Origin: a virus
IMG/VR virus record: IMGVR_UViG_3300032285_000996
Coordinates: 1 to 25,511 of that record
Length of the DNA: 25,511 bases
Direction: 5' to 3' (one strand)
The notes under the pieces were generated by a model. That model was not told the origin of the DNA and ran no database searches. It worked only from the letters and a program-made list of their open reading frames with translations. Position numbers and translations under genes: made by a program. This document shows positions 1-19,498 of the stretch, piece by piece. Position 1 is the first letter of the stretch. The number at the start of each line of letters is the position of its first letter.

Positions 1-402
1 ACCCTGACGCAATGTTTCCATTGCAATCTTGTCTAGAGAGTCTGCCATGTTGAACGCGATGATGTCTGCTACTGCAGGGTCAACATCTGATAGTGAGAAC
101 AACTGTAACTTACGAGTTACAAGTGATGCGTTTCCGTATTCAGCGAGTGATACTGAAACTGTTGAAACATCTGATAGTGCTACTGCATCTGGGTCAGTTG
201 TTTCTGATGAAAGTGCGGATGTTGCTGCAGCCAAGTCATTGTAAATTGAGAATACAACGCTTGAACCTGGCATCGCTTGCTGAGCAGGGCGCTTGTCTGC
301 AACTGAACGAATCAGTGGCTGAGCACGAAGCGCGAACTCTACATAGCGGTCATACGCGGTTTTGATTAACCCTGCGAGTGCAGAGGTATCTGTGTATGCC
401 AT
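1..402 (-). CDS. Major capsid protein, N4-gp56-like (N-terminal part, cut by window edge)
   Basis: This is the first 134 residues of a major head subunit, which assembles into the icosahedral shell around the genome. The start at 402 has a near-perfect ribosome site, AGGAGGTG, a few bases upstream. The sequence runs from an N-terminal helix (YDRYVEFALRAQPLIRS), through a segment typical of the N4-gp56 family (PGSSVVFSIYNDL), to SLAEYGNASLVTRKLQLFS and a helix starting DPAVADIIAFNMADSLDK. In known capsids of this family this order forms the N-arm, E-loop region and start of the spine helix. It lies directly downstream of the scaffold gene, as capsid genes usually do. The C-terminal half is outside the window. 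The family call is by pattern recognition, without a search. Confidence 0.8.
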   Translation of the reverse strand, partial: MAYTDTSALAGLIKTAYDRYVEFALRAQPLIRSVADKRPAQQAMPGSSVVFSIYNDLAAATSALSSETTDPDAVALSDVSTVSVSLAEYGNASLVTRKLQLFSLSDVDPAVADIIAFNMADSLDKIAMETLRQG

Positions 403-429: not shown

Positions 430-900
430 TTAATTAAATGTTTGAACGCCGAGGATTGAACTTAAATCAGCAGCCGATGTAGCATTTAATATCTTTGCAA
501 GTGCATCTTCGTCCACCCCTGGAGGTGTACCTGTTTGCATTACATTCTGGATTCTGCGCTGTGCATCGGATGCAGTTTCCTTAGCCTGAGTTTCCTCTGC
601 TGCTGGTTGCTGTACTCCGAACACATCGCCATACTCAGCAAGCCATGCGGACACGGCTTCTTCTGTAGTATCAATATCCTGTGGGATAAATGCTGCGACC
701 TTTGGGTTAATACCCTTTGCTGATAGAACATCCTTGACAGTACGCTGACGAGTCTGTGTCTTAAGTGTTGTCGCTTCTTGTTCAAGTTCTTTCAAACGCT
801 TTTCTAGCGTGCGATTTACCTTGCGTAGTTGCTTGACGACATCTTGTGGCTCATTGCCAAAGTCATCATCTTCGTCATCGTATTCGTAATTGGTAGCCAT
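430..900 (-). CDS. Capsid scaffolding protein
   Basis: This 156-residue protein is probably the internal scaffold that guides capsid assembly and then leaves the head. It has a very acidic N-terminus (YEYDDEDDDFGNEP), a charged predicted coiled coil at about residues 22-52 (QLRKVNRTLEKRLKELEQEA), a middle segment resembling other phage scaffolds (VKDVLSAKGINPKVAAFIP), and a low-complexity Ala/Glu/Gln tail. Its position immediately before the capsid gene supports the role. The start at 900 has GGGAG upstream at normal spacing. It could instead be a capsid-assembly protease cofactor, but no protease motif is visible. Confidence 0.78.
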   Translation of the reverse strand: MATNYEYDDEDDDFGNEPQDVVKQLRKVNRTLEKRLKELEQEATTLKTQTRQRTVKDVLSAKGINPKVAAFIPQDIDTTEEAVSAWLAEYGDVFGVQQPAAEETQAKETASDAQRRIQNVMQTGTPPGVDEDALAKILNATSAADLSSILGVQTFN

Positions 901-1022: not shown

Positions 1023-2372
1023 TTATATTGAACTTTCTGTCTTAAGTGAACCAGCACTTAAACCAGATGAACCACCAAAGCGTGCTGCTTCACGGGCTGC
1101 ACGCTTCTGTGACTGCATAAGTTCTGCTTGGTCTTGTGCAAGAACTGCCTTAACTGCTGAGATGTCGTTGTAATTCTCGCCTTCAATCTGTGCGAGTTTT
1201 GACTGTGAGCCAGCAAGTTGATATGCCTTTTGGAAGTCTGTCTTAAGTGTTGTTAAATCTTCTTTGCCTGAGGCATTAACAAATGATTCAGCAACGCCTG
1301 CACCAAAGTTCTTGAAGCCTGCATTTTGTGCAGCAGCACCAATTTCAGCAGCACGAACTTCTTTGTTAATAAGGTCCATGCCAATCTTAGGGTCAAGTAA
1401 CCATGTGATTGCTGTAGGTGTTGAGATGTTGTAATAGTTTTGAAGTGCTGCAAGTACATCTGTATTCTTTGATACTCTGTCAGCAGCGATAGATACACGA
1501 TTCTCAAACTCAGCAGGTGATACTTCATTAGCAATCCACTGACCTTTGGCTTGAGTGGTTCCTAACACTTTGGCATCTAAACCGTAGGCACGCAATGTCT
1601 GGTCATACCCGCGTTCCATGTTAATGTAAGTTGATTCATTAACTGCCAAACCTTTTGCACGCAATGCATCCATACCAGGAAAACGGTCTTTGTATGCCTG
1701 TGTACCAATGAGGTTAATCTTAATCTGAGCAGCAGTTAAATCATCTTTAATGTAACCATCAATAGTATCTGCCAATGAATCAAGTCCAGCCATCTTAAGA
1801 CTTGCTTTGAAATCTTCTAGGGCTGTAGTTGTAGCACCTCGGGTTTGTGTCTTAAGTAAATCAGCGTTTGTCTTTGCTGTATTAAGACCTGATTGATATG
1901 TGGCATACGCCATTTGGTCAGTAAATTTTGTACCATCTGTGGCTGTATATGTTGTAACATTACCGCCACCTGCAGGAGGATTATCTCCATTTCCACCATT
2001 TGATGGAGGATTATTCCCATTGCTACTACTGACTGTGCCAAAATCTTTGTAAAGTTTCCACTCTCCAGCAATATAAGACCAGTGTGTTCCTGCTGGTGCT
2101 TCGTATGGAGGAGTAGTTCCGTTACCAGTTAAGCGTTCATTTTGAATACGAGCAAGGCGTTCTGCTGCTGTTTCTTTTGGTGCAGGTTCAGTAGGTGTGG
2201 TTTGTAAACCAGCATTTGCATACTCAAGATTAGATACTTGGTTAGTTACGCTTGAGCCAACATTGCCACCGTAGCCTATTTTTTGTGCATCAGCATCTGC
2301 TTTTTTAGCAGCAATCTTAAACTGCTCATCAACGGTTGTTTTTAAACTTGATTCGTAATCTGGGTCGCGCAT
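1023..2372 (-). CDS. Virion-associated protein of unknown function (449 aa)
   Basis: No enzyme motif is recognised. The N-terminal third is low complexity: a Lys/Ala/Asp helix, a Pro/Glu-rich linker, then an Asn/Gly/Pro-rich stretch around residues 112-137. The remaining two thirds are alpha-helical with the pattern AYKDRFPGMDALRAKGLAVN, a tyrosine-rich stretch (ERGYDQTLRAYGL), and VSPAEFENRVSIAADRV. I associate this pattern with structural or ejection proteins of uncultured tailed phages, from memory only. The start overlaps the stop of the preceding gene as TAATG, implying coupled translation. The placement between portal and scaffold is consistent with a protein packed in or near the head vertex. 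Three copies of CTTAAGAC fall in frame as Leu-Lys-Thr, including one at the C-terminus. Confidence 0.72.
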   Translation of the reverse strand: MRDPDYESSLKTTVDEQFKIAAKKADADAQKIGYGGNVGSSVTNQVSNLEYANAGLQTTPTEPAPKETAAERLARIQNERLTGNGTTPPYEAPAGTHWSYIAGEWKLYKDFGTVSSSNGNNPPSNGGNGDNPPAGGGNVTTYTATDGTKFTDQMAYATYQSGLNTAKTNADLLKTQTRGATTTALEDFKASLKMAGLDSLADTIDGYIKDDLTAAQIKINLIGTQAYKDRFPGMDALRAKGLAVNESTYINMERGYDQTLRAYGLDAKVLGTTQAKGQWIANEVSPAEFENRVSIAADRVSKNTDVLAALQNYYNISTPTAITWLLDPKIGMDLINKEVRAAEIGAAAQNAGFKNFGAGVAESFVNASGKEDLTTLKTDFQKAYQLAGSQSKLAQIEGENYNDISAVKAVLAQDQAELMQSQKRAAREAARFGGSSGLSAGSLKTESSI

Positions 2373-3778
2373 TATCCTACAAATCCAAACTGCTTCATCA
2401 AATCTAGAGCCATGTTGCTATAGGTTTCCTTAGCGTTCTTGGTGGTTTGCCATAGTGGGTCTTGCTTAACTGCTTTGGTAAAGTCAGCAAAGGTATTAAC
2501 AGTTCCCTTATCTTTGTTCTGAACCTTAGCCATGAGGTCATTCCATGTAATGTTAGTTGGGTCTACTTCAAGTAGTTGTGCCATCTGATTACGGTATGTG
2601 CTTGTTACATCGTACAAAGTACGACCTTCTTTGAGAGAAGCAGCAAAGGCAGGGTTAGCATCAATAGACATTTGCTTGATATTGTTTAAATACCACTGTG
2701 CATCTTTACCATCTGCTGGATTAAGCAAGTCGCGTTGCATTGTTTCCAATTGGTTCTTGTCTAATGATATACCATAGTTAAGCGCTTGGCGCTTAATCTG
2801 GTCTACATAACTACCAATCTGCCCACCGCCAGTAAAGATGACATCTGACTTCTTGGCAAGGTACTGGCTAATCTGGTTAGCATCCCAACCATTTTGCAAA
2901 GCCAATGATGCAAGTTCGTTAATAGACTTAGTGTTATCAATAACCTTGCCAGTTACTGGGTCAATATCATTGATTTTAATTCCCAGTGCTTCCATGCCAG
3001 CCTTGACAGTATCAACCTTATTAAGCATTGTCTGTGCAAAAGTTGCAGCGTTGCGTGGGTCATGTGACTGAATGAAGAAGTCACGCATTGTTGGCATGGT
3101 ATTTGCCCACCACTTGGTGTTCTTGAGGGCTTCCATGAATGTTGCTTCGGTCCACTTGCCAGCCTTGGCTGCAGCAAATAAATCTGTTATCTGCTTCTGC
3201 TGTACTGGGTCATCAATACCGTGCTTGAAAGTTGCAGTAAGTGCATCAATCCAAATCTGCTTAGGGTCAGCACTTGGAACATTGCCACCTGTACCAGTAC
3301 CTGTACCAGTGCCAGTACCTGATGTTGTTGGGACATTAGCAGGCTTGCTTGCAACTACGCCAGTTGGTGCAGTAGCAGATGACTGTGGGTAGTTAGGAAA
3401 CTTATCTGATACATCAGGGATTCCATCACCATCAGAGTCTTTCTGACCATTGACATTAGGAAATTTACTAGGTGTTGATGAAGCAGTTGTAGATAATTGT
3501 CCACGCAAATCTGAAAGTTCTGAATCAATCTGTGTTGTTGATTGACCCTTAGCCTTGGCAATAGCCTGTTGTGACTTTAACTTGGCAATCTTCTTCTTAA
3601 GGTTTGTATCTTTTCTTGCAGTGGCTTCATCAATCTTAGCCTGAGCCTGAGCATTGCTAACTTTTTGAGCACCGCTAAGGATGGCAAGAAGGTTCTTTGC
3701 CTCTGGCGAATTAGGGTCCATGCCCTCAAGGGCTTTGCTTAATCCGTTGATTATGCCTTGCGTTAAAATATCTGCCAT
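2372..3778 (-). CDS. Virion-associated protein with a DxDxDG calcium-binding loop (468 aa)
   Basis: The protein has a Lys/Ala-rich predicted coiled coil at about residues 30-85, then a single thrombospondin-3-like calcium loop (DSDGDGIPDVSDKFP, near residues 113-127), a Thr/Ser/Pro linker containing a (GT)n run, and a helical C-terminal domain. That domain has Trp-rich and DP-rich motifs (NTKWWANTMPTMRDFF, ITWNDLMAKV). The calcium loop is typical of extracellular or virion adhesion proteins, so exposure outside the cell at some stage is inferred. TAATG overlaps couple it to both neighbours. It shares general architecture with the 449-residue neighbour (coiled coil, low-complexity linker, helical C-terminus), which suggests a related role in the DNA-delivery apparatus. 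Confidence 0.72.
   Translation of the reverse strand: MADILTQGIINGLSKALEGMDPNSPEAKNLLAILSGAQKVSNAQAQAKIDEATARKDTNLKKKIAKLKSQQAIAKAKGQSTTQIDSELSDLRGQLSTTASSTPSKFPNVNGQKDSDGDGIPDVSDKFPNYPQSSATAPTGVVASKPANVPTTSGTGTGTGTGTGGNVPSADPKQIWIDALTATFKHGIDDPVQQKQITDLFAAAKAGKWTEATFMEALKNTKWWANTMPTMRDFFIQSHDPRNAATFAQTMLNKVDTVKAGMEALGIKINDIDPVTGKVIDNTKSINELASLALQNGWDANQISQYLAKKSDVIFTGGGQIGSYVDQIKRQALNYGISLDKNQLETMQRDLLNPADGKDAQWYLNNIKQMSIDANPAFAASLKEGRTLYDVTSTYRNQMAQLLEVDPTNITWNDLMAKVQNKDKGTVNTFADFTKAVKQDPLWQTTKNAKETYSNMALDLMKQFGFVG
3287..3322 (-). repeat. Short tandem repeat encoding a Gly-Thr run
   Basis: Imperfect six-base units of the type GTACCT/GTACCA (plus-strand reading) repeat about six times and encode alternating Gly and Thr on the minus strand. 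Alternation of GGT/GGC and ACA/ACT codons shows partial divergence of the units. Slippage here would change linker length in frame. Confidence 0.7.
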
Positions 3779-4194
3779 TACTGACGAACCTTTCTAACAT
3801 CGGCTGCTACTGCGTTATAGATAGCATCTAAGTATTTATTATCTTCACGAGCCTGAAACTCAGGTGAATTCATAATTGCATTAGTTACAGCCTGTTGACG
3901 GGCATAGATACTTGAATCGCTTGACTGATTCATAGCGATGGCGTATGCCTTGGCGTAATCATTACCAGCAGCATTGCGCCCTAGTAGTTGCTGATAGACA
4001 GTCTGAACTACATAGTCTGCCTCAGCAGGGGTAAATACTGCACCACCTGTGGCACCTGTTTGACCAGTGTAACCAGCAGCAAGGCTTGCAATACTAGGTG
4101 CTTTGTTGCCAGTGTTCTTTGCAGAAGAATCCGTAGCAGCCTTGACGGTTTTATCGCCCATTGCTGCTGCACCCTTTTGGACTGCACTACTCAT
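3778..4194 (-). CDS. Small virion-module protein with a DUF4214-like segment (138 aa)
   Basis: The N-terminus is Ala/Thr/Gly-rich. Residues about 55-130 read TPAEADYVVQTVYQQLLGR, then a spacer, then NAIMNSPEFQAREDNKYLDA. The combination of YxxLLGR with a downstream SPEF resembles DUF4214, a helical module found in secreted and S-layer-associated proteins and in some phage particles. The homology call is by eye. The gene is joined by TAATG overlaps to the giant gene upstream and the 468-residue gene downstream, so the products are probably made in a fixed ratio and used together. Confidence 0.65.
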   Translation of the reverse strand: MSSAVQKGAAAMGDKTVKAATDSSAKNTGNKAPSIASLAAGYTGQTGATGGAVFTPAEADYVVQTVYQQLLGRNAAGNDYAKAYAIAMNQSSDSSIYARQQAVTNAIMNSPEFQAREDNKYLDAIYNAVAADVRKVRQ

Positions 4195-7100
4195 TAGATT
4201 ACCACCGTATCATTTGCGAAGTAACGATTAAGGAAACTTTCCGTTTCTGGAGATTCCGCAATCAGTTGTGTTCTGTATTGGTCAAATGCCCAAGCAAGGT
4301 CTGCGTTCTGCTTAGCAGTAAGACTGCGTGAACCGCCTGCCTTGTATCTATTATCCAACTCAGTTTGCAACTGTTGACGAACATCTAAGTAAAGAACCAT
4401 GTTCTTCACTACTGCACGCCCACCATTTTGAGCCATCCACTTTGCATCCTTAGATGCATTGAGAAGAATCTCTGCACGGCGTGCGTACTTAGCGCGGTCA
4501 GGTGCTGCATATTGTGAATACCAGTCAAGGTTATTCTTAGACTGCCACTGTAACCATTGCTGCTTGGCATAGTTAATTTTCTTCATGGCTGGGTCAGTAT
4601 CAGAAACAATGCCGTTTTGAATTTTGTAGGCAGTGATTTCCTTTTGAAGTGCTTGGAACTCAGTCCAACCCTTCTTGATATTAGCCTCAGTAACAATCTC
4701 ACCAGCAGTACGGTTCTGTAAATAGTTAGAACCTGCACCTGGAGCAGCACCGTGGCTATACATCCATTGGTATGCAGCCTGGCTAAAGGTGTACTTGTTG
4801 TCACCATCGTTAGCAAGGAAACCAATTAACTCTGGGTCACCCTTAGATGTTGCATCAGCCATAAGGTTGCTGAACTTCTTAAGGTTGCCAACAGTTCCAA
4901 TGCTAGGCTCAAGTCCTCCAGGATTCTTTGAAAGGCTTACTGTTGCCTCAAAGTAATCTGGGTACATCTTAAGGAACTCAGCATCTGCCTTACCGATTAC
5001 ACGGTGTGGCTTGCCATCGGCACCAATCTCTGTGTAGTCAGCGTACTTCTGTTGTAGTTGCAGGTACTGCTGACGGTAGAAGTCAACCTCTGGAGTAATT
5101 GCAAATGGCATCGTTAGTGACTGGAAGGCACGAAGCAAGTAGAACTTGTTTGTGCGAGAGGTTACCTCTGCAACTGTTGGTGCATCTGTGCGCTCACCAT
5201 TGTTGTAGCGGTATGTTTCGTAACGAAGCATCTGATTAAAGGTACGAACATATAGTTCATCCTTCTTCCACACAGTTCCAAGGCGCTTAAGTACTGGCGG
5301 TGTGAACAAATCACTAGCACTCTGAGGCGCACCCACTGGGAAGAATACTGACAAAGCATTTTCCAAAGAAGGCTGTTGCTTAAGAATCAAGTATGCTGGC
5401 AAGACTGCAAATGGTCCAACACCTGGGTTACCAGGGTTACCCTGTGTAATAACATCAAGGCTTGCCAAAGGTATCTGAATGTTCTTAAATGAATCTTCAA
5501 GAATTGGTCGCCATGACTTAGGTGCTGAATCAATGAACGCTTGTGGCACACGAACGATGAGGTTAGCGTTGCCACCAATCTTTGTAGCATCCTTAATCTC
5601 ATTGCCATCTTTGTCAACAACCATCTGACCATTGACAACCTGTGCGATTGTACGAGCAGCGTTAGCAGCAATGGCTGGGTTCTCTGCAGTCATGCCACCC
5701 CAGCGTTGTGCTGTGTTTTCAAAGGCTGCATAGAATGGGAACAGCAACTTCATTGTCTGGCTAGATGATGCACCTGTACGGCGTACAATGGTAAACAAAG
5801 TCTTTTCAACTTCTTGACGAGACTTCTCACGAGCAGAACGCACTGCACGGTTAAGTTCTTCGGCGGTTAGATGTTCTCCACCTTTTGCTGCTGATATTGC
5901 TGCAACATTACGGCGTAGTTGCTGGTCATAGACAGCGCTTGCCAATGGGTGACGAGCAAATACATCTTCTGGAAGTGAGCCAAGGAAACGCATGACACGG
6001 CGATTGATTGTGTCAATAAGGCGTTCTTGGTCCTTGTATTCCTTTGAGGTAGTTACAAGCAAACCGTTAAGAGGTGTCAAGTTTTCTGGTGTCTTGCCAA
6101 AGCGTTCAATAAGGAACTTCTGTACTTCTCCACCAGTAAGTGGCTTGCCAGATTCTTTAAGAGTCATCAGCATATTTGCTGTCTCTTGGTCTGGTAAGTA
6201 AGCCTTTACAGCACCACGAACTGTACGAATCTTTTTAAGAAGTTCCTCATCAAGTTCGCCACCCTTTATCGCTGTAAAACCATAACCATAACCTACACGA
6301 GTGTAAGTATTGTTAGCGTAAAGGCTTCCTTCATGTGACTTAAACCATTTAAGAATTGCATTGTCATCTACGCCTGTAATAATCTTTTCAACAACTGGGT
6401 CCATCTGACCAGTTTCAGGATTACGGAAATGCAAAGTAAGAATGTTTGCCCAGCCTTCAAAGTAGCGTGGGTCACTAGGTTGTACAAGACGAACTGAGCG
6501 TGAACCAATGCCTGCAGTAAATGCCATCTCCTGTGAGGAAACTATTGCGTTCCATGTTTGCTCAGCAGAGGTACGACTAAGGAACCATGAAGCACCTTCA
6601 AAAACCTTAGGCAATGTGTATGAGTGACCATTGGCATCAAATTTATTATTGAATCTGCGTTCTACATTTCCTTTAGCATCAATAATTTGCGTACCATAAC
6701 CAAGGCGTTGTTTAACAGCCATTGATTCTGTTGCATCAATACGAGCACCAATGCGTGAAGCCATGTCATCAAGATGTGCATGTGATGTTGCATACAAACG
6801 AGCAAGATTTTCTGCAGCATCTTCAACGCCATTGTTAATCATGGCATGAACATTGTCCTCATGGTAATAAGGTGAGACTGCAACATCTCGTGCGCCTGAG
6901 CGTTGTTTACGAATAAACTCTTTACGAGCAGCACGGCGTTCTGCTGGAGTTTGTAACTTGGCTTCAAAATCTGTAGCCATGTTCCAATCCCATGCTTCGC
7001 CTTGCTTCTTCATGGTTTCAGAAATTGAACGCTTGACTTCTGCATCGCGGCCCTTAGCACCAACAGCCTCAGGTAATGCAATGTGTGAAACTCCACCAGC

Positions 7101-9956
7101 CTTGCGGTCATCAAGTACTACCGCACGACCATATCCGTTTTCACGCATGTACTTATAGATTGGGTCGTCAGGATTTGACCAACCCTTTGATGAAATCCAT
7201 GCACGATAGTTTGCTGTTTTATTACCGAAAGCAGACTCACGAAGTTCAACTGGAATGTCAGACCATTTGGTTAGATATACAGGCTTGCCGTATACACGAA
7301 CTGGCTCAACATTTCCTTTGCTGTAATCAACGCGGAAAATAGGACGATGTGACCAACGGTCTTTACCAAATAAAGTTACTTCTGCTTCATCAGTTTCAGC
7401 AGCAAGAACAAGTGTCTTGTAGTCAATGCTTTTAACTTTGCGCCATCTGCCAGTTGAATCTTTGTACTCAACTTTTTTGCCAGCGTTAACAGCATCAATC
7501 ATATCTGACTGAAGTTTAAGGTTGGCTTCATTAAGTACATCAGCACGCTTACCAACAGGTAAATCTTGTGCATTTGATGGCGCTGGCTTTTGACCTAAAC
7601 GACCAGGGCGACCTGTCTTAGTTGGAATGTACTGTTCAATTGAATAAGTCTTGCCAGTCTCTGCATAATCTCTAGCAACACTAGGTGAGCCAGACAAAGC
7701 AAGACCGCGAGTTGGGTCAATTGTCAATGGTGTAGGTGAACCATGGTAGAGCGTGTATGACTCTAGGTCTGCTCGTACACCCTTAAGGCGCTCAAGTTCA
7801 TTGTCAGTAAAAGCACCAGCAATCTGATTCTTTTCCAACTCATCAATGCGTTGTGATACAGCCTTTGCAAGGTTTTGCTTTGACTGGTCAATAGAACGCA
7901 ACTTGTCAAGTTCTTGAGCAAATTCATTTTGCATTGTGCCAAGGTCCTCACGGCGACCTAACATTACATTTACATGGTCAGACAGGCGTGAGAATCCAAC
8001 TTTGCGGTTAGTAAAGAAACGGTCAACCGCATCCTTACCACCTGAGGCAACCACTGATGGAAGGGCAAAGCCTTTAGCCAACATAGATAGTTGCGCTTCT
8101 GCAAGGTTACGAGTTGTGTAACCAAGGCGCATAAGCACAGAAGTTTTAAATATGTCGTTAACAGTATCAAGTGCTGCAGCAGCACGGCGACCGCGAAGGG
8201 CAGCGCCTTCAACATCTATACCACTAAGTAGTCCTGGCAGAACTTCTTTGTGTGCATCAATGCCATACTTTAACTTGCGTAGGTCAGCGATGATTACTAT
8301 GTTTGCTGATTCGCTACGAACAACTGGAAGGCTTACTGCATGTTGCAGATGGTCGCCTTCAAAGTACGAAATAAACCCTTGGTCTTTGTGCTGTTTAATT
8401 GCAGTAGCACGGCGAGAGTCATAGATAGAATAAATTTTATCAAGAGTGTCACGGTCATATTCTGGGAACAAATGTGCAATTGCAGTATTTTCTGCTTCTG
8501 CAATTATTTTTAAACGGTCACCTTCTGTTTGTGCATTAAGGTATCTACTAGCAAGAAAACGACCTTGTTCACCAAATGTGTTTTTTGATAAATCATTTAC
8601 TTCACGAAGAAATGTATTGAACTCACGGTAAGAGTTGCCATCATTAACATGAAATACACCGCTTGGGCGTTCTTCGCTAAAAAAGTTAATAACTCTAATT
8701 GGTGGATGCAATGAAGTTTTTTGAATAATAGTTTCTATTGGCTCACCAAAGGTTCGTGCTGATTCCTTTTTGGCTGCCTTAATAGCGCCACCCTTTGCAA
8801 AGCCGCGCTCAAAGCCGTACTTAAATTCTGTACCGCCAGTAGCAACTTGATTAAGCGCTGCACGGTAACGAGTGTCAGTAGCAGCAAGGTCAGCAACATA
8901 AGCGCCAATAGCCTTGTTGTATTCTGGAGAGATAAGAATATCTCCATCCAAATTACCGCTAAGAAGTTCTTTGTGTGGATGTGGAACTTCATTCATGTTG
9001 TCAAGGGCGATAGCAGCAACTGGGTCTTTCTCTGCAATCTGTGCCATTGCCTGAGTGTCTTTACCAAGTACAGCCTTGAAAGTTTGTACAACTTCTTCTG
9101 GTGAACCAGCGCGACCAAATAGGTACGCCATTGCATCAGGATTAGTTACCTTCTTGTCAGCCCAATAACCAGCCTGACCTGCAGCATCTGAGCCAGCAAG
9201 GAAGTTAATATCTTCCCATGCCTGACCCTTTTCTTCTGCAAGGGCTTTAGTAAGGATGTTATCCATACTGTCATTGGTGGCAGCAAACTTTCCAAATACA
9301 GCGCGGGCTAACTTGCCGTTGATGTTTTCATAACGCAAGCCTTTGCTTGCAATGACTGCACCTTTACCCAAGAAACCAGTAACGGTCAGTGGGTCAATAA
9401 CTGTTGAAGCAACAGCATCTGACATACCAGAAAGAAACTTACCTGTGTACTGATTATCAAATGCAACCTTGCGGTCCTCAGGATTGAACAAGTCAAAGCC
9501 TGCAGACATAAAGCGTAGGTTGTTGTCAGTCCAGTTCTGGAACCAACCGCTTCTATCTCCAGCATTTTTACCAGGTGAAAAAACAGATAGCGCTGTTTCG
9601 CCCAAAGAAATCTTGTCTTTGTTTTGCGCTACACGCTGTGTGTACTCGTCATAAGTTTCGCCATCGTTCTTAAACTTATTGTACATAAGCGGGGTGTCAA
9701 GAATTCCCTGCTCAATCTTTTGGCGTGCCCAGCCACCAGCCTCGTAAGACTTTTGACCTGCATACAACAAACCTTGAACAGCACCACGAAGTGGAGTAGT
9801 TGCAACTTTACCAACATCTTTAATGACATTGAGTCCATCTACATACCATGGGTCATTGTTAGACAACGATGAAGATACATCGTGAACAAGTCCACCTAGA
9901 CCTGTGAAGTCAACAAGATTCTTGGTTACTTTACCAAGCGTATCCGTCCAACTCAT
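4194..9956 (-). CDS. Giant virion-type protein (1920 aa) with an ADP-ribosyltransferase-like segment
   Basis: This is the largest gene in the window. The N-terminal 150 residues are amphipathic and Gly/Ala-rich, followed by long helical regions and a coiled coil near residues 690-730. Residues about 735-800 read LYHGSP, then LALSGSPSVARDYAETG; residues about 930-960 read YKYMRENGYGRAVVLDD and GGVSHIALPEA. These two blocks match the first and last strands of the ART fold used in phage polyvalent proteins (YHG at the NAD site, a DYA helix, a closing GY..VV strand). The intervening 130 residues may be an insertion. The C-terminal half has the segment LFPFYAAFENTAQRWGG and no recognised enzyme motif. 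By analogy with T4 Alt and with large ejected proteins of podoviruses, it may be carried in the virion and injected. It overlaps the gene upstream by ATGA. Function is inferred. Confidence 0.7.
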   Translation of the reverse strand: MSWTDTLGKVTKNLVDFTGLGGLVHDVSSSLSNNDPWYVDGLNVIKDVGKVATTPLRGAVQGLLYAGQKSYEAGGWARQKIEQGILDTPLMYNKFKNDGETYDEYTQRVAQNKDKISLGETALSVFSPGKNAGDRSGWFQNWTDNNLRFMSAGFDLFNPEDRKVAFDNQYTGKFLSGMSDAVASTVIDPLTVTGFLGKGAVIASKGLRYENINGKLARAVFGKFAATNDSMDNILTKALAEEKGQAWEDINFLAGSDAAGQAGYWADKKVTNPDAMAYLFGRAGSPEEVVQTFKAVLGKDTQAMAQIAEKDPVAAIALDNMNEVPHPHKELLSGNLDGDILISPEYNKAIGAYVADLAATDTRYRAALNQVATGGTEFKYGFERGFAKGGAIKAAKKESARTFGEPIETIIQKTSLHPPIRVINFFSEERPSGVFHVNDGNSYREFNTFLREVNDLSKNTFGEQGRFLASRYLNAQTEGDRLKIIAEAENTAIAHLFPEYDRDTLDKIYSIYDSRRATAIKQHKDQGFISYFEGDHLQHAVSLPVVRSESANIVIIADLRKLKYGIDAHKEVLPGLLSGIDVEGAALRGRRAAAALDTVNDIFKTSVLMRLGYTTRNLAEAQLSMLAKGFALPSVVASGGKDAVDRFFTNRKVGFSRLSDHVNVMLGRREDLGTMQNEFAQELDKLRSIDQSKQNLAKAVSQRIDELEKNQIAGAFTDNELERLKGVRADLESYTLYHGSPTPLTIDPTRGLALSGSPSVARDYAETGKTYSIEQYIPTKTGRPGRLGQKPAPSNAQDLPVGKRADVLNEANLKLQSDMIDAVNAGKKVEYKDSTGRWRKVKSIDYKTLVLAAETDEAEVTLFGKDRWSHRPIFRVDYSKGNVEPVRVYGKPVYLTKWSDIPVELRESAFGNKTANYRAWISSKGWSNPDDPIYKYMRENGYGRAVVLDDRKAGGVSHIALPEAVGAKGRDAEVKRSISETMKKQGEAWDWNMATDFEAKLQTPAERRAARKEFIRKQRSGARDVAVSPYYHEDNVHAMINNGVEDAAENLARLYATSHAHLDDMASRIGARIDATESMAVKQRLGYGTQIIDAKGNVERRFNNKFDANGHSYTLPKVFEGASWFLSRTSAEQTWNAIVSSQEMAFTAGIGSRSVRLVQPSDPRYFEGWANILTLHFRNPETGQMDPVVEKIITGVDDNAILKWFKSHEGSLYANNTYTRVGYGYGFTAIKGGELDEELLKKIRTVRGAVKAYLPDQETANMLMTLKESGKPLTGGEVQKFLIERFGKTPENLTPLNGLLVTTSKEYKDQERLIDTINRRVMRFLGSLPEDVFARHPLASAVYDQQLRRNVAAISAAKGGEHLTAEELNRAVRSAREKSRQEVEKTLFTIVRRTGASSSQTMKLLFPFYAAFENTAQRWGGMTAENPAIAANAARTIAQVVNGQMVVDKDGNEIKDATKIGGNANLIVRVPQAFIDSAPKSWRPILEDSFKNIQIPLASLDVITQGNPGNPGVGPFAVLPAYLILKQQPSLENALSVFFPVGAPQSASDLFTPPVLKRLGTVWKKDELYVRTFNQMLRYETYRYNNGERTDAPTVAEVTSRTNKFYLLRAFQSLTMPFAITPEVDFYRQQYLQLQQKYADYTEIGADGKPHRVIGKADAEFLKMYPDYFEATVSLSKNPGGLEPSIGTVGNLKKFSNLMADATSKGDPELIGFLANDGDNKYTFSQAAYQWMYSHGAAPGAGSNYLQNRTAGEIVTEANIKKGWTEFQALQKEITAYKIQNGIVSDTDPAMKKINYAKQQWLQWQSKNNLDWYSQYAAPDRAKYARRAEILLNASKDAKWMAQNGGRAVVKNMVLYLDVRQQLQTELDNRYKAGGSRSLTAKQNADLAWAFDQYRTQLIAESPETESFLNRYFANDTVVI

Positions 9957-10411
9957 TGAGCAACCTGTGCGTTCATGACTTGTGATTCAAGCCAGCGGAC
10001 ATAGTTACGAGTTGAGTTTGTTGCCTGTGGTGATTCTGCAATCTGCTTATAGACAGGAAGTACAGCAGCCAACTTAGCGACATCTTCATTATTCTGAGCA
10101 GCAAGCATCATTGTTGATGGCAGTACTTCATTACCTGCACCAGGTCCTGAGGCAGCACCAGTTGCTGGGTGCTCATCAGGGCGTTGTGTCTTTGCGTTTA
10201 AAGGAACAACATCTTCGGCTGGCATCACAGGTGCAATTCCGCTACGACCCTGAGGGAGCGTTACACCTGACTTGTTCATCTTTGCAGATGATTCTAATTC
10301 TTGAAAATCTTGTGCGCTGTCAATGCCTGCAACATATTGTGCTGGTTGTCCTGCGCTACCTGCTCCGCCTGTGGCTGAGACTTTAAAGTTCTTTGATGCT
10401 TCTACTGCCAT
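9953..10411 (-). CDS. Unknown small protein between portal and giant virion gene (152 aa)
   Basis: The first two thirds are low complexity, rich in Gly, Ala, Ser and Pro (ATGGAGSAGQPAQYVAG). The C-terminal 50 residues form a more ordered helical stretch (EDVAKLAAVLPVYKQIAESP, then NYVRWLESQVM). No family is recognised. The start has GGAGG upstream (GCGGAGGAAAAC before ATG). The stop overlaps the start of the 1920-residue gene as ATGA, which argues for translational coupling and possibly a chaperone or co-packaged partner of that protein. Confidence 0.7.
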   Translation of the reverse strand: MAVEASKNFKVSATGGAGSAGQPAQYVAGIDSAQDFQELESSAKMNKSGVTLPQGRSGIAPVMPAEDVVPLNAKTQRPDEHPATGAASGPGAGNEVLPSTMMLAAQNNEDVAKLAAVLPVYKQIAESPQATNSTRNYVRWLESQVMNAQVAQ

Positions 10412-10683: not shown

Positions 10684-12501
10684 CTAAGCGGGTAAGCGTT
10701 TGATAAGAGATGCCTGTAAATTAGGCTCTCCCCGTTGGGTTAAACCTGCTAGTAGCGATTGAATATCAGGACGACCACCTGGTGATAGTTGTCCCGCTGC
10801 CACTCCTTGCATACGACCTGTAGGCGATAAGCCTGGAGGTAGTTGTTCTTGCCCCGCACCTGCTGGAACCGCACCTGGTTGCCCTTGTTCGGGACTTACT
10901 TCTGCAGGGGTAGCAGCAGGAGGGGGATTCTGAGGAGCCCACGCCTTTTGAATAGCAACTTCAATTGCTGTTCCCTTTTGGCGTTCGCTAATTACGGTAG
11001 AAAGTTTCATCAAAATGTCTGATGGGTCTTGACCTTGTGATGCAAGTGCTGGAATTGCTTGTGCATAAGAGGCAATTGCCTGCTTCATTGCATCGCGTAA
11101 TTCTTCTGTCTCAACTTTTTCTTCTTCTTGTGTTGCATTGAAGTTGAATGGCATCTGACGGCGTAGGAAATCGCGGGAAATCAACTTATCTCCGCGAGCC
11201 TGTAGACCAAATACCAACGCACGGTTGGGGTCAAGTCCTGCCATCAATCCATATTGCACATCAACTGTGTAATCGCCAGAAATATCTCGCGCTGGCTTGT
11301 ACTTAATGTTGTACGGCGTACCGTTAAAGATACCTTCTAGTGTCTTTTCTTGGTTGCCAAAAACTTTTTCATCTGTCTTAAGTGCTAAAGCCATCAACTC
11401 TGTAAATGCACGGGCAAACATTGAGTGTGCTGTCTTGATTTGTGTATCAAAACCACCCATAAGCGCCTGCACACCACGACCTGTGATGATAGAAGCATCT
11501 GAATTACCAGTGCGTGTCTCTGGATAGCGTGAACCTAAGCGTAGTTCGCTTTCAAGAACACCCTGCTGTTGGAAAGTATTTGCAGGTAGTTCAAGCGGGA
11601 CTCGGCGAATTTCGTTAGGCTTGCTGGAACGCATAATTGCATCTGGTCCAAGGGCTAACTCCTGTACATCCTGAGGCATTGCGATAGGTGCCTGTACTGA
11701 TTTGGTTGCTGCTTCCAAAGAAAGTAGCGCATAACGAGCCTTGGCAACCTGAATTGCTAGTACATCGTCAAACTGTCCTCGTGATTGGTCATCAATAGAT
11801 GGTCGGCGTACAACGCGAATCATACATTCGCCCATTGGATTAGCAGCGCGGTCAAGAACTAGGTTGCTACGCTGTGGCAAGAAGATAACATCTTGGTCTT
11901 TATCGTGGAAACGCACGACCTCAGACATTGTTGACTGTGTATTCTTGTCATAAATCAAATGTGCAATCTCTGGATATTGAGACATCAGTTCCTGAGTTGG
12001 CTTCATAATGCGTTGGAAGAACATAATGCAACGACCAAAGCGGTCAATTACAGGGTATGCACCCAATGAATCCATGAAACGGATGCGTGGCATCTGTGCA
12101 TCGTAATCAACTTCAACCTGTGCAGGTACAAATCCGTAGGTTACATAACGGTCTGCAGCATTAAACATCTGTGACTGTAAATCAGAGAAGTCAACAATGC
12201 CGTTAACAATTTCTTCACGCTTATCAGCCTTCTTACGAACTGTCTCAGACACCATAGATGTTGAGTTACAGTTAAACGCAGGCAGTGGTGCAATTGTTTC
12301 TGCAAGGTCACGGGCTGCAATATCTACCATATTCGCAACGATAGGATTCTCAAAAGGACCATCGGGGAATAAATCTGGGTAGACATCACGCATCTTGCCT
12401 TGACGAACCAAAAGAACTTGATTCATTCTCTGGTCACGGTCATCGTACATACGGCGATAACGGTCGTATGTATCTTTGATTTCGTCAATAGATAGCGCCA
12501 T
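10684..12501 (-). CDS. Portal protein
   Basis: This 605-residue protein should form the dodecameric ring at the head vertex through which DNA is packaged and ejected. The N-terminal helix set (IDEIKDTYDRYRRMYDDRDQ) leads to GPFENPIVANMVDIAARDLA and PLPAFNCNS, then the central wing region with RYVTYGFVPAQVEVDYD and FMDSLGAYPVIDRFGR, and a Pro/Gln/Gly-rich C-terminal tail. It is immediately downstream of the large terminase, the usual order. I place the start at ATG 12501 because AGGAGG sits at proper distance from it. The in-frame GTG at 12507 overlaps that ribosome site and is unlikely. Confidence 0.85.
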   Translation of the reverse strand: MALSIDEIKDTYDRYRRMYDDRDQRMNQVLLVRQGKMRDVYPDLFPDGPFENPIVANMVDIAARDLAETIAPLPAFNCNSTSMVSETVRKKADKREEIVNGIVDFSDLQSQMFNAADRYVTYGFVPAQVEVDYDAQMPRIRFMDSLGAYPVIDRFGRCIMFFQRIMKPTQELMSQYPEIAHLIYDKNTQSTMSEVVRFHDKDQDVIFLPQRSNLVLDRAANPMGECMIRVVRRPSIDDQSRGQFDDVLAIQVAKARYALLSLEAATKSVQAPIAMPQDVQELALGPDAIMRSSKPNEIRRVPLELPANTFQQQGVLESELRLGSRYPETRTGNSDASIITGRGVQALMGGFDTQIKTAHSMFARAFTELMALALKTDEKVFGNQEKTLEGIFNGTPYNIKYKPARDISGDYTVDVQYGLMAGLDPNRALVFGLQARGDKLISRDFLRRQMPFNFNATQEEEKVETEELRDAMKQAIASYAQAIPALASQGQDPSDILMKLSTVISERQKGTAIEVAIQKAWAPQNPPPAATPAEVSPEQGQPGAVPAGAGQEQLPPGLSPTGRMQGVAAGQLSPGGRPDIQSLLAGLTQRGEPNLQASLIKRLPA

Positions 12502-12519
12502 GTTCACCTCCTACCTTTG

Positions 12520-14388
12520 TTATATTGTCATTAAGTCGGATAAAGAAATTGTTGCTTGTTGTGATTTGTCATACCGTGTATGGAACATGGATTGACGATT
12601 GTGATTACGAGCAAATACATTTGCGCTATTGATGCGGTCACGCACTGCAAGTTCTGTAAACCAGAAAGCCATCACGCAGTCAGTCTTTTGTGTCTTAGGT
12701 GCATCTGGGTACCAAGTAACCAACTGCTCAATAAGAGCCTTAAGACCTTCTGACGAGTGAGTCGAAGGAAATTCAATTAAGTTATTTCCTTCTTCATACC
12801 CATGGAATAAAGTGGTTAGAGATGCAACACCAAAATCAGTGTCCCATTTATTTTGTCCTGTATGGTGTTCACGGAGTGTTGCACCTCTAGCCGATAGGTA
12901 TTCCCGTACCTCACGGTCCTGAGTCAACATCGCTTGAAATGCATTTTTCTCAACACGCCACTCAGAAATTCTGTACTTGTCAGTCCAGTCTTTAATGAGA
13001 GTTCTGATGTCATCTGGTTTCATACCAGGTACATTTGACACATCTAACAAGTATCGCTTTTGCGTTGCTAGGTCTACAGCAATACAGACAGCAGCGGTAT
13101 AACCAGACATAGCAGGGTCCAGTCCAGCCACAACAACCAGACCATCCATGCCTTCATGTCGGTTACCTGCCTTACCCTTAGGAATAATTCCAATGTTGCG
13201 GGCACCGTTGATGACACCCTTGATTGCTGCTGCAGGGAAAGCAGAATCTTCATGAACTTGTTGCTGTTGGTAAACCATTGCCCATAGGTTCGGTGACATA
13301 CGACCACGCTTTTTGGAAAGCGCCTCACCGTCCCACTTGGTATAAAGTCCATCCTCATCGGGGGTACCTTTACCTGAGACGGGAGGCATATTGGTTTTTG
13401 GCCAAAGCGTTACCCAGTCTTTGTATTCATCTTTAAATTCCAAGACCGCAGGTTGTGCAAAGTATGTCCATGGTGAAGTCTCATCAGGGTAGCGCATAGG
13501 GTCGCGCAGTTCTGAATACAAGTCGCGTGGACGAAGGCGGGTGCCTACTACCAGTAACTTGCCTCCGTCATTGTCAATACGGGACATAACTTCTGATTGA
13601 ATCCAGTCAATCTGCTTCTCGTACTCATGGGCGTTGGTATGGTCAACACAGTCGTCCATGATAATCAAGTCAGCACGGGCACCATAAATGTGTCCACGGA
13701 TACCAATAGCCTGAACTGTTGGGTCCTTTTCACCAGAGTTACGAGCCTCGGATGATAAGTAAATTAGGTCCTGCTTCCACGAATCAGAATTCTTTTCGAA
13801 CCCGCCTGGAGGTCCAAAGGCGAGATGTAGGTCCTGATAACGAGGATGGGTGAGTCTGTTCTTTATGGAGAGCAGGAACTTTTGCGCCATAGCCTGAGTC
13901 TTGGATACCACCAAGATACGGATGTTAGGGTTACGGCAAATCTGGTAGAGCGCGTAGTTGACGGTAATGGTCGTAGACTTGGCGTGCTCAGGGGGAGTAT
14001 TAACAATTAATAAATCTTTATCCCCAGGCTCATAGATGATACTAGGGTGGACATCGGAGGGGGTGGTACCCTCCAGCAAATCAATCCAATGCTTTTGGTG
14101 GGTAAAGACTTTTACACCTAGGTACTTCTCAGAAAACTCAGGAAACGGTGGTACCTCAACGGTACCGCTCTGTAGTTCCCCACGGGCGGTCATAGACCGA
14201 ACTTTGTCTATCTGGGTACGGAATGTCTCATCGGTCTTACGGTAGTATTCGTATGTCTTGACGGACCGACCGACAGCATCCATCGCCTTTTGGACGGAGT
14301 ACCCCTCCATCAGAAATTCTATAATTTGCTTTTTAATAGCATCCGCATTTTTAGTTTGCGAGTTAACTCTTTTAGTTTCCATAGGCAT
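12520..14388 (-). CDS. terL: Terminase large subunit with N-terminal helix-turn-helix
   Basis: This is the packaging motor ATPase and headful or cos nuclease. Residues 15-60 form a helix-turn-helix of the small-terminase type (GYSVQKAMDAVGRSVKTYEY). A variant Walker A, TPPEHAKST, is at 131-139 and Walker B LIIMDD at 241-246; VVGTRLRPRDLYSEL near 280-294 fits motif III. The RNase-H-like nuclease domain starts at GLDPAMSGYTA (Asp424) and ends with DCVMAFWF. The length, 622, is about 100 above many TerL proteins because of the DNA-binding head. No separate small terminase is visible nearby, so the fusion may replace it. ATG 14382 is an alternative start. There is no clear Shine-Dalgarno sequence; an RNA hairpin lies there instead. 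Confidence 0.92.
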   Translation of the reverse strand: MPMETKRVNSQTKNADAIKKQIIEFLMEGYSVQKAMDAVGRSVKTYEYYRKTDETFRTQIDKVRSMTARGELQSGTVEVPPFPEFSEKYLGVKVFTHQKHWIDLLEGTTPSDVHPSIIYEPGDKDLLIVNTPPEHAKSTTITVNYALYQICRNPNIRILVVSKTQAMAQKFLLSIKNRLTHPRYQDLHLAFGPPGGFEKNSDSWKQDLIYLSSEARNSGEKDPTVQAIGIRGHIYGARADLIIMDDCVDHTNAHEYEKQIDWIQSEVMSRIDNDGGKLLVVGTRLRPRDLYSELRDPMRYPDETSPWTYFAQPAVLEFKDEYKDWVTLWPKTNMPPVSGKGTPDEDGLYTKWDGEALSKKRGRMSPNLWAMVYQQQQVHEDSAFPAAAIKGVINGARNIGIIPKGKAGNRHEGMDGLVVVAGLDPAMSGYTAAVCIAVDLATQKRYLLDVSNVPGMKPDDIRTLIKDWTDKYRISEWRVEKNAFQAMLTQDREVREYLSARGATLREHHTGQNKWDTDFGVASLTTLFHGYEEGNNLIEFPSTHSSEGLKALIEQLVTWYPDAPKTQKTDCVMAFWFTELAVRDRINSANVFARNHNRQSMFHTRYDKSQQATISLSDLMTI

Positions 14389-14902: not shown

Positions 14903-14950
14903 ATGACCAGTCATGCCAGCCACGCTCAGAAAGTGTGACCAGTCTAACAC
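14903..14950. promoter_or_regulatory. Two palindromic operator-like sites upstream of the SprT-like gene
   Basis: ATGACCAGTCAT at 14903-14914 is a palindrome with a CA centre. GTGTGACCAGTC followed by TAACAC at 14933-14950 is a degenerate version of the perfect site GTGTGACCAGTCACAC found at 16110. The same TGACCAGTCA core makes these likely binding sites for one dimeric regulator, probably controlling the rightward cluster. Confidence 0.55.
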
Positions 14951-15041
14951 CCCTCAAATGTTGAGAATGGCGAGGAATGAGAGTAGAAATCTCCTAGTGC
15001 TTAAGTCACAAGGATTTAAGCCGATGACAGGAGAACAAGAA

Positions 15042-15680
15042 ATGACAGCAACAACAGCACTTAAGACAGGAAAGACAAGCAAGGCGGAGGCACTCTCAAC
15101 AATTACAAAAGCCCTTGAACAGGCTCATGAAATCATCAAGGCAGAAACAGGAGCGCCCCGCGCAACTCTTCTTGTGACCCGCGACCTCAAGGGTCGTAAG
15201 GGACATTTCACACCTTTCACACCGTGGACAACAGGCGAGGAGTCTTTCTCAGAAATCGCGTTTAACCTTGAGCACTTCACAACACCAGAAGAACTATTGA
15301 GCACCTTGTTGCATGAGGTAGCGCACTCAATTAATCACATGAATGGAATCGAGGACTGCTCATCGAACCAATACCATAACGCCAAATTTAAGACACAAGC
15401 CGAGGCGTTAGGTCTTAAGACACTAGAAATCAAGGGCAAGGGACACGCTGCAACCGAACTCACCGAACTAGGCGCTAAGCGATGGAAGAAAGCCCTCACC
15501 ATCCTAAGCAACGCTTTCGACCTCACCGCACTAGGCGGAGAACAGGCGAAGAAGAAGGGGCGCAATACCAACCTAATCAAGGCAATGTGCGAATGTGAGA
15601 ATGTAATCCGCCTCTCTCGCGGTGTCCTTGAATCAGGCGTGACATGCAACCAATGTGAGGAAGTGTTCAAGGAGGCTTAA
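15042..15680 (+). CDS. SprT-like zinc metallopeptidase
   Basis: This 212-residue protein carries the zinc-protease motif HEVAH at residues 91-95, followed by a third-ligand-type segment NQYHNAKF (110-117), and a C-terminal zinc ribbon (CEC at 183-185 and CNQC at 202-205). This is the SprT/Spartan order: peptidase helix then zinc ribbon. Family members cleave proteins bound or crosslinked to DNA; a phage role could be clearing host DNA-bound proteins. I choose ATG 15042, preceded by ACAGGAG at eight bases, over an in-frame ATG at 14913 that has no ribosome site and would place the operator repeats in coding sequence. It is the first gene of the rightward cluster. Its TAA stop lies in a CTTAAGACAG motif. 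Confidence 0.8.
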   Translation: MTATTALKTGKTSKAEALSTITKALEQAHEIIKAETGAPRATLLVTRDLKGRKGHFTPFTPWTTGEESFSEIAFNLEHFTTPEELLSTLLHEVAHSINHMNGIEDCSSNQYHNAKFKTQAEALGLKTLEIKGKGHAATELTELGAKRWKKALTILSNAFDLTALGGEQAKKKGRNTNLIKAMCECENVIRLSRGVLESGVTCNQCEEVFKEA

Positions 15681-18308: not shown

Positions 18309-18499
18309 TTCTTATGGAGTGCAGAAGTTGCGGTGTCATGGTGCAGAACCCAAAGACATTGAACTACATGGCGGAAAGATGCACGCCATGCGAGATGAAG
18401 TTCAGAGAACTGGCGAACCGCGCCATTGACACCTACCTAGATGAGAAGGCAGAGGCAGAACGCGATGCTCAACTTAAAACTGATTCACCCGCACGCTAG
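18305..18499 (+). CDS. Small zinc-finger protein (64 aa)
   Basis: Residues 6-9 are CRSC and residues 26-29 are CTPC, a two-knuckle CxxC...CxxC zinc site of the treble-clef or zinc-ribbon kind, followed by a long charged helix (KFRELANRAIDTYLDEKAEA). Zinc-finger proteins of this size in phages usually bind nucleic acid or a host protein. It is joined to the upstream gene by ATGA, and its last 35 bases overlap the start of the transglycosylase gene. Confidence 0.68.
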   Translation: MILMECRSCGVMVQNPKTLNYMAERCTPCEMKFRELANRAIDTYLDEKAEAERDAQLKTDSPAR

Positions 18500-18908
18500 A
18501 TTATGGATTGTTACAGTACTTATTTTGGGATTTATTTTTGTACTTAAGACACCAGCAAGGCAGTATGTATTGCCCGAACATGGCAGACTTATCGCCTACT
18601 ATCAGAACGATTACCAACGCTACGCGATTGACAAGTTGATACAGCAAGACAACCTTGAACAGTATCCATGTCTCTATGAATTGTGGACTAAGGAATCTAA
18701 CTGGCGACCAAAGGCTATGAATAAACATGGCGGTGCTATGGGTATTGCACAACTGAAACCCTCAACATGGCGTGTGCTTAAGTTGAAGCCCACGACCAAC
18801 GGCTACCGACAGGTAGATGCTGGACTCAAGTACATTGACAGACACTATGGTGAAACAGGTGGAGTGTGCAGAGCGTACGCCCATTGGTTAGCGGAAGGTT
18901 GGTATTAA
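18465..18908 (+). CDS. Membrane-anchored lytic transglycosylase (SLT-like)
   Basis: The 147-residue protein has an N-terminal hydrophobic segment at residues 13-27 (LWIVTVLILGFIFVL) and then an SLT domain: catalytic Glu77 in WTKESNW, followed by KHGGAMGIAQLKPSTW and AGLKYIDRHYG, the conserved lysozyme-like goose/SLT order. It cleaves the glycan strands of peptidoglycan. The anchor suggests export with the catalytic domain outside the membrane, as in phage SAR or anchored lysins, or a role in cell-wall penetration. ATG 18465 is preferred over 18441 because AGAGG lies upstream at suitable spacing. The stop TAA falls in ATTAAGACATG, which starts the next gene. Location in the small-gene cluster, away from virion genes, favours lysis or wall remodelling over a tail role. 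Confidence 0.78.
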   Translation: MLNLKLIHPHARLWIVTVLILGFIFVLKTPARQYVLPEHGRLIAYYQNDYQRYAIDKLIQQDNLEQYPCLYELWTKESNWRPKAMNKHGGAMGIAQLKPSTWRVLKLKPTTNGYRQVDAGLKYIDRHYGETGGVCRAYAHWLAEGWY

Positions 18909-18911
18909 GAC

Positions 18912-19160
18912 ATGACACACGAAGAACTATTGGCAAAGGTAAATCAAGGAATAGAATCTTCTAATTATTCTAACTCTCTTGGTGAGTGGCACGCAGATAG
19001 TTTTCTTTCTGCCCTGCGTGCAGTAGTGGAATTGCATAAGCCAAAGAACTACATCATTAAAGGGTTTGAAGTTACAGAGTCTTGGTGTACTGCTGACTCT
19101 GAATCACTAACTCCATACCCCTGCTCAACTATTCAGGCTATTGAGAAGGAGTTAGAGTGA
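18912..19160 (+). CDS. Unknown protein (82 aa)
   Basis: An 82-residue protein starting THEELLAKVNQGIE, with SALRAVVELHKP in the middle and a C-terminal segment containing two Cys. The N-terminal pattern (EELL followed by LRAVVELH) is one I associate with small actinophage proteins of unknown function. The ATG lies three bases after the previous stop in a TTAAGACATG junction. The stop overlaps the WhiB start as ATGA, so the two are probably co-translated. Confidence 0.68.
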   Translation: MTHEELLAKVNQGIESSNYSNSLGEWHADSFLSALRAVVELHKPKNYIIKGFEVTESWCTADSESLTPYPCSTIQAIEKELE

Positions 19161-19498
19161 AGCCACAGTTCCACAGAGTAATCAGCGTTACTCATAGCAA
19201 GAACAGATACAACAAGGGCTTGATTGGTTATGTCTTAAGATACAACCAACGGCTATGGGACAAGGCAGTTTGCAGGGGTATAGACACAGAGATTTTCTAC
19301 CCAGCACAGGAGTTGTTCACTCGTGACGAGGAGCGCATGTTTGAGAAGATGTGTGTTGAGTGCCCCGTTATGATGGCTTGCCTTGAGTGGGGCTTAGCCC
19401 ATGAAAGGTACGGAGTATGGGGCGGGACGACACCACCCATGCGACACAAGATTAGAGCAAGGATTGGTTGGGCTTTGACAGAACCAAAACTTGGGTGA
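19157..19498 (+). CDS. whiB: WhiB-family iron-sulfur transcription regulator
   Basis: The 113-residue protein has the four cluster-binding cysteines at 39, 66, 69 and 75 (C...CVEC.....C) and the family signature GVWGG at 86-90, followed by a basic tail (RHKIRARIG). WhiB proteins bind a 4Fe-4S cluster and contact region 4 of the primary sigma factor to alter transcription; phage versions such as the one in mycobacteriophage TM4 can block host WhiB function. The N-terminal 35 residues are basic and longer than in minimal WhiB proteins. It is the last gene of the rightward cluster, ATGA-coupled to its neighbour and followed by a terminator. It is the main evidence that the host is an actinobacterium. 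Confidence 0.93.
   Translation: MKPQFHRVISVTHSKNRYNKGLIGYVLRYNQRLWDKAVCRGIDTEIFYPAQELFTRDEERMFEKMCVECPVMMACLEWGLAHERYGVWGGTTPPMRHKIRARIGWALTEPKLG

Follow-up and report, generated by a model that had tools for sequence, protein, structure and literature searches.

The DNA analysed here, hereafter the window, is the 25,511-nucleotide virus record IMGVR_UViG_3300032285_000996 from IMG/VR, and the protein of interest is P0001, a virion-type (ejection-type) giant protein of 1920 residues encoded by an open reading frame (ORF) on the minus strand (4194..9956). P0001 is a homologue of gp9 of the Beephvirinae, found in the same gene order, and contains an ADP-ribosyltransferase (ART)-fold domain at about residues 733–965. 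A first-pass annotation had proposed an ART-like domain in this protein from two sequence motifs, and both lie where it placed them: LYHGSP starts at residue 736 and GVSHIALPEA ends at residue 964 (window about 7065–7755), within motif spans of residues 736–769 and about 934–964. Judged by a structural model and by conservation, the N-terminal half of the domain (residues 733–785; 7602..7760, minus strand, as for all features of P0001 below) comprises strand 1 with LYHGS, strand 2 and a helix, ...SPSVARDYAE, and the C-terminal half (residues 873–965; 7062..7340) reads RPIFRV...VRVYGKPVYLTKW...MRENGYGRAVVLDD...SHIALPE. A small SH3/Hfq-like beta subdomain, a weak structural match with a Z score of about 4, is nested within the ART (residues 829–879; 7320..7472). 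One loop of the fold, between strands 2 and 3, forms a slot that is empty in the window, where it consists of the linker GQKPAPSNAQDLPVGK (residues 788–803; 7548..7595), and that holds modules of 80 to 240 residues in relatives.

Structure prediction was the check suggested with the first-pass annotation. An AlphaFold model of residues 640–1060 of P0001, built from 33 sequences, has an ART core mostly at a predicted local distance difference test (pLDDT) score of 80–92 and displays the split beta-sheet of ARTs with the ART strand order. In a second look with VIA-align, the best PDB chain for this model was the anti-CRISPR ART AcrIF11 (6kyf), with a Z score of 8.9 and a root-mean-square deviation of 3.6 Å over 118 residues, followed by other ART-fold proteins, namely MbcT (Z 6.3), ParT (6.0), tankyrases (4.7) and exotoxin A (4.4). 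In BFVD, two of the six best matches were named PolyVal ADP-ribosyltransferase, both at weak E values (0.05 and 0.17).

To these comparisons we can add the conservation of individual residues in an alignment of 66 distinct homologues, the window included, for which 44 relatives came from IMG/VR and further ones from a profile scan. His 738 (codon 7743..7745), the candidate nicotinamide adenine dinucleotide (NAD)-binding histidine of strand 1, is invariant (64/64), as is Gly 739. Tyr 764 (7665..7667) is conserved in 65/65 and stands 26 residues from His 738, the spacing of H20 and Y46 in AcrIF11Pae2. Asp 949 (7110..7112), which lies in a loop just ahead of the last strand and is the candidate catalytic acid, and Asp 950 are each present in 65/66. 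In a more distant group, clade 2, which is 26–31% identical, His 738 and Asp 949 are kept, the Tyr 764 position is occupied by Tyr or Trp, Asp 950 is lost and His 958 changes. Asp 949 was singled out because it persists in clade 2 whereas Asp 950 does not.

Several observations weigh against reading this domain as an ART of the His-Tyr type. A Z score of 8.9 barely exceeds the level given as background for models that have no clear match, and Foldseek returned no significant match in the PDB, the chains it listed belonging mostly to the SH3/Hfq-like subdomain or being unrelated. Searches of the window's own protein by sequence against Pfam, PHROGs, NCBIfam and the PDB found no ART. The canonical third Glu is absent; in a manual alignment the PARP-type Glu position is occupied by Ser (S957, 57/66) or Thr (9/66). 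Two clade-2 members have Trp in place of Tyr 764. Finally, AcrIF11 also appears to carry an acidic residue before the last strand, D115, and its equivalence to Asp 949 is read from aligned ranges, not from a residue-by-residue superposition. Because the Z score is barely above background and the Foldseek result is not significant, the ART call was drawn from fold rank, motifs and conservation in combination. Taken together, the predicted fold and the conservation of the His, Tyr and Asp show the window domain to be a genuine ART fold of the His-Tyr (diphtheria toxin/PARP-like, polyvalent-type) branch, and the ART-like domain of the first-pass annotation is thereby borne out, including the conservation of its His-Tyr pair in homologues.

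The slot in the ART loop lies between the motifs GRPGRLGQKP and KRADVLNEA. Among the 66 homologues it holds a short linker in 16 (the window among them), a helical linker of QWD type in 15, an ART of the Arg-Ser-Glu (R-S-E) class in 15, a ParB-like module in 10, a module we call GYRGAH in seven and one we call FGGW in three; the truncated loci L078, L060 and L020 were kept outside the ‘empty’ class in the final count. Relatives of P0001 thus combine two ARTs, or an ART and a ParB-like domain, and the window member has a single ART. Every full-length clade-1 homologue keeps the outer ART, those with an empty slot included.

The cargo ARTs match PF03496 at about 1e-12 to 1e-13 and the PHROG of T4 Alt, phrog_832, at 4e-9, and all complete ones retain the R, STS and ExE motifs, which places them in the R-S-E (Alt/VIP2) class. 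Their best fold matches are enzymes of the VIP2/CDTa type, a model of the L016 cargo matching VIP2 at Z 11.3. For the ParB-like cargo, which has a conserved EGNHR, the family call is weak (PHROG 0.002–0.003, Pfam ParB_N 0.05–0.1). The GYRGAH cargo (L105–L109, L113 and L103) matched only phrog_2579, ‘ParB C-terminal domain’, in the family searches (3e-32) and matched no solved structure. By eye, its pattern TIYRAVP...WVTPLREYA resembles an R-S-E ART. The FGGW cargo (L098, L085 and L068; FGGWYNKQAKELVLDFSDNV...SIWDIKN) matched no known family in the family searches. An intein or homing element in the slot was considered and dropped, since both the ART inserts and the ParB-like ones have matches among effector domains and no features of such elements were seen, although no dedicated intein search was made. 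R-S-E ART-like modules were also noticed in other, apparently unrelated giant phage proteins (L263, L266, L261 and L258), seemingly two in tandem in L266.

The contents of the slot are exchanged repeatedly at this one position. Outside the slot, the backbone of an ART carrier (L047) is 99.4% identical to that of an empty one (L048), and those of two ParB-like carriers are 99.1% (L017 vs L048) and 99.2% (L086 vs L051) identical to empty ones. On a tree of 66 tips, built after the ART and slot columns had been removed, cargo class requires a minimum of 34 changes (the lowest possible number being 5 and the mean after shuffling 40.6); with the exception of GYRGAH, cargo class is therefore only slightly linked to descent. 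Conversely, cargo ARTs that are 89% identical sit in backbones that are 62% identical. The ART and ParB-like cargos have a G+C content of 0.367 and 0.345 and a third-position G+C (GC3) of 0.15–0.16, whereas the remainder of the gene has 0.44 and 0.35; the FGGW and GYRGAH cargos show no such difference in overall G+C. Nearly all of these carriers are IMG/VR contigs, which could suggest that slot variation is an artefact of metagenome assembly or binning, with only one version being real. We regard this as very improbable, given that in 65 carriers from 62 metagenomes the variation always falls at one position and preserves the reading frame, that cargo sequences diverge within a class, and that a cultured phage, F5, has the empty version of a carrier that is 87% identical to L208 and L209, which hold the ParB-like cargo.

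Variation in the carrier also extends beyond the slot. The gp9 protein of Romero, a Streptomyces phage of the Beephvirinae, aligns to residues 173–705 and 1164–1916 of P0001 and has no counterpart of about residues 737–1130, so that the ART is an additional module within a carrier that the two have in common. As the domain is present in freshwater lineages and absent from this Streptomyces homologue at that place, it was either gained or lost. Clade 2 (L223–L253) also has the outer ART, with ART cargo at the same place. Its portals are 79–81% identical to that of the window, against a clade-1 median of 81%, whereas its giant proteins are only 28–29% identical to P0001, against 51–71% in clade 1. 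Similar phages here carry one or the other of two divergent forms of the carrier gene. A third carrier type (L205, L208 and L209) has no outer ART, and its ParB-like module is set in a region that resembles a coiled coil; F5 (OX376641) has the empty form of this type. F5 and its fellow isolate E7 (OX376640) are nearly identical in terminase (99.7%), portal (96.6%) and capsid (99.0%). Their giant proteins, by contrast, show no match to each other, and for the next two ORFs the match is weak or absent. The replaced block thus comprises the giant protein and the next two ORFs (L268, 8703–16928; L269, 18243–25941), and the scaffold-like gene is among those that are 97–100% identical. An 8-kb island separating E7 and F5 was left unexplained by the authors who described them (PMC10202952). 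From the sequences compared here, that island most likely is the replaced giant-protein block.

The carriers bear on whether the outer ART is an enzyme at all. It could be catalytically dead, serving in an ejected protein as a structural display frame for cargo or for docking to a target. Such a frame would fit the missing third Glu, the Trp for Tyr replacement in two clade-2 members, a strand 2–strand 3 loop that accepts inserts of up to about 240 residues, and the lack of an ART in the more distant carriers of the F5 type and the Beephvirinae. Against it, His 738 and Asp 949 are kept at 26–31% identity while Asp 950 and His 958 change, and the domain is found in all full-length clade-1 homologues, even where there is no cargo to display. 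A dead frame is therefore a doubtful explanation, but the strongest of the alternatives we considered, and we favor an ART that is active.

The surroundings of P0001 are those of a phage head block. Upstream of P0001 are a 152-residue ORF whose stop overlaps the P0001 start (9953..10411; phrog_8200, 2.2e-26), which is the counterpart of Beephvirinae gp7, a 62-residue ORF, the portal protein (10684..12507; phrog_104, 1.5e-21; 40% identical to Romero gp3 and 47–49% to the cultured E7 and F5) and the terminase large subunit (12520..14388; phrog_38, 6.4e-67; 49% to Romero gp1). Downstream follow a 138-residue ORF, a 468-residue ORF (2372..3778; phrog_6654, 6e-66; similar to Romero gp11/gp12) and a 449-residue ORF (1023..2372; phrog_8424, 2.7e-57; similar to Romero gp13), which may be second and third internal or ejection-type proteins, then a scaffold-like protein (430..900; phrog_7813, 4e-45, with weak scaffold PHROG matches; similar to Romero gp36) and the major capsid protein, which is truncated where the window ends (1..402; phrog_1357, 3e-28; 56% to Romero gp37). 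Those given here with coordinates are, like P0001, on the minus strand. The 1920-residue protein is indeed encoded between portal and scaffold genes, as the first-pass annotation had stated. This order is that of Romero, to which the head-block ORFs other than terminase, portal and capsid are matched more weakly. The C-terminus of P0001 itself matches phrog_10618 at 3.8e-60.

A WhiB-family regulator, a marker of actinobacterial hosts, is encoded elsewhere in the window (19157..19498, plus strand; PF02467, 5.9e-15). Because the gene order matches Romero, Abafar of the same subfamily is a podovirus (PMC11536984), and WhiB is present, the window virus is, as far as gene content and order can tell, a podovirus-like actinophage. 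WhiB and the cultured relatives point to freshwater actinobacteria as hosts. The earlier description as an actinophage agrees with this regulator and with the relationship to Streptomyces Beephvirinae and to cultured Planktophila phages. No prophage relatives were found in the bacterial genomes scanned with a C-terminal profile. Among the other genes of the window, a SprT-like metallopeptidase (14913–15680, plus strand; PF10263, 2.2e-6) adjoins the terminase on the opposite strand, and matches to SLT transglycosylase, deoxynucleotide monophosphate kinase, sigma-70 region 4 and Toprim lie at 18441–18908 (plus), 19603–20136 (minus), 20255–20908 (minus) and 21280–21912 (minus), respectively. An ORF at 22791–23546 (minus) looks glycosyltransferase-like by eye, as reported for the cultured E7 and F5, and has no Pfam match at 0.01.

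We propose that P0001 would be packaged inside the particle and enter the cell with the DNA, where its ART would use NAD+ through His 738, Tyr 764 and Asp 949 and so modify some macromolecule of the host as infection begins. This domain would also serve as a fixed frame, whose loop after strand 2 would deliver an exchangeable second effector in relatives; the window carries the empty-slot version. Delivery with the DNA is suggested by the head-block position, a homologue in a podovirus, the early delivery that is known or predicted for proteins of this kind and their ARTs, the effector-type cargo and its rapid exchange. Podoviruses deliver large internal proteins with their DNA (PMC8954989), and effector domains in giant phage proteins have generally been linked to early delivery (PMC5512222; PMC9503650). 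Alternatively, P0001 might be a structural protein that is not ejected, any action of its ART then coming late, in the cell that produces the new particles. Ejection of P0001 is indeed deduced indirectly, and a late-gene position would suit any virion or morphogenesis protein; we nevertheless consider this alternative unlikely in view of the delivery precedents just cited and of the rapid cargo exchange, which suggests a host-facing role. Overall, we judge it fairly probable that P0001 carries an ART-fold domain in a packaged and ejected protein, where it would both use NAD+ and act as a cargo frame.

The cargo ARTs could instead be toxins directed at eukaryotes, with the outer ART merely accompanying them. 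A ‘Trojan horse’ role against protist grazers has been proposed for VIP2-like ARTs in 24 freshwater phages (PMC6802176), and the cargo ARTs of the P0001 family share with these the habitat and the predicted actinobacterial hosts, and have VIP2/CDTa-type enzymes as best fold matches. However, the cargo sits in the middle of a protein encoded within the portal–capsid gene block, and this location makes the eukaryote-toxin reading less likely for the P0001 family. Furthermore, no secretion or translocation part was seen, the cargo ART also matches T4 Alt, and it is swapped with a ParB-like domain that has no obvious eukaryotic target. We therefore give eukaryote-directed toxins even less credence than a non-ejected P0001. 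The family bears on the Trojan-horse view of freshwater-phage ARTs all the same, since here the ARTs sit inside a phage head-block protein.

An ART in a virion-borne giant phage protein is a known theme, to which the window domain adds a member. In the literature searched there was no ART that has a hypervariable cargo slot in its own loop and for which exchange of cargo between near-identical phages was measured. The carriers form a natural series of differing effectors set in a protein that is otherwise nearly constant, in viruses of very abundant lake bacteria, and the exchangeable cargo points to a rapidly changing set of host-delivered proteins. The likely identity of the E7/F5 island with the giant-protein block opens the question to work on isolates. 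More tentatively, and with somewhat less than even confidence, we suggest that phages of abundant freshwater actinobacteria possess a dedicated loading dock, in which each particle would carry a fixed ART and an exchangeable second weapon, exchange would outpace gene divergence, and the whole carrier block could be replaced.

Among known systems, AcrIF11 is the closest solved fold and shares the His-Tyr spacing of 26 with P0001. AcrIF11Pae2 is inactive if H20/Y46 or the acidic pair D146/E147 is replaced (PMC12421852). AcrIF11 differs in that it is small, stands alone and is synthesized inside the cell, and the sequence identity over the aligned part is 16%. ARTs in polyvalent or virion phage proteins are well established (PMC5512222; PMC9503650), and those of the Tox-ART-HYD2 type (PMC5512222) resemble P0001 in being His-Tyr ARTs within a giant, probably virion-borne phage protein. 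The start motif of the RPP1 prototype CBX87992, LYHGT...LELARDYAK, resembles that of the window, although hhalign gave no alignment between our family profile and this prototype, a weak test against a single sequence. The third catalytic residue of Tox-ART-HYD2 is an Asp in strand 5; in the window domain the candidate is Asp 949, at the end of the penultimate strand. The window domain lacks a significant sequence-profile link to these ARTs, does not match the Pfam polyvalent ART model, is interrupted by the cargo slot and the SH3-like subdomain, and sits in an actinophage ejection-type carrier in which no RNA polymerase or metallopeptidase (MPTase) module was detected.

The first-pass annotation had likened the domain to T4 Alt. 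That comparison holds for the suspected deployment as a packaged, injected ART and fails for the active site: Alt is an R-S-E ART (PMC5512222), whereas the window's own domain has His 738, Tyr 764 and Asp 949 and no R-S-E cargo in its slot. Alt is also a head protein in its own right and does not occupy a slot in a giant protein; in sister phages the slot cargo ART does match Alt's PHROG and is of the same class. The gp9 proteins of Romero, Abafar and other Beephvirinae are homologous carriers in the same gene order in phages with podoviral virions (PMC11536984), but the ART and slot region is wholly missing, as seen in Romero. The Planktophila phages LanE43-AprE7 and -AprF5 (E7 and F5 above; PMC10202952) likewise share the gene order and have a giant protein in the same place, and the F5 carrier family also takes ParB-like cargo. 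They differ in having giant proteins with no detected ART and in that E7 and F5 are distinguished by replacement of the whole block. The T4 internal proteins and the DarA and DdrB proteins of phage P1 are variable head proteins that are delivered with the DNA for counter-defence. Unlike the cargo of the P0001 family, these (DdrB is treated in PMC5512222) are encoded by separate genes and are not interchangeable modules inside one domain.
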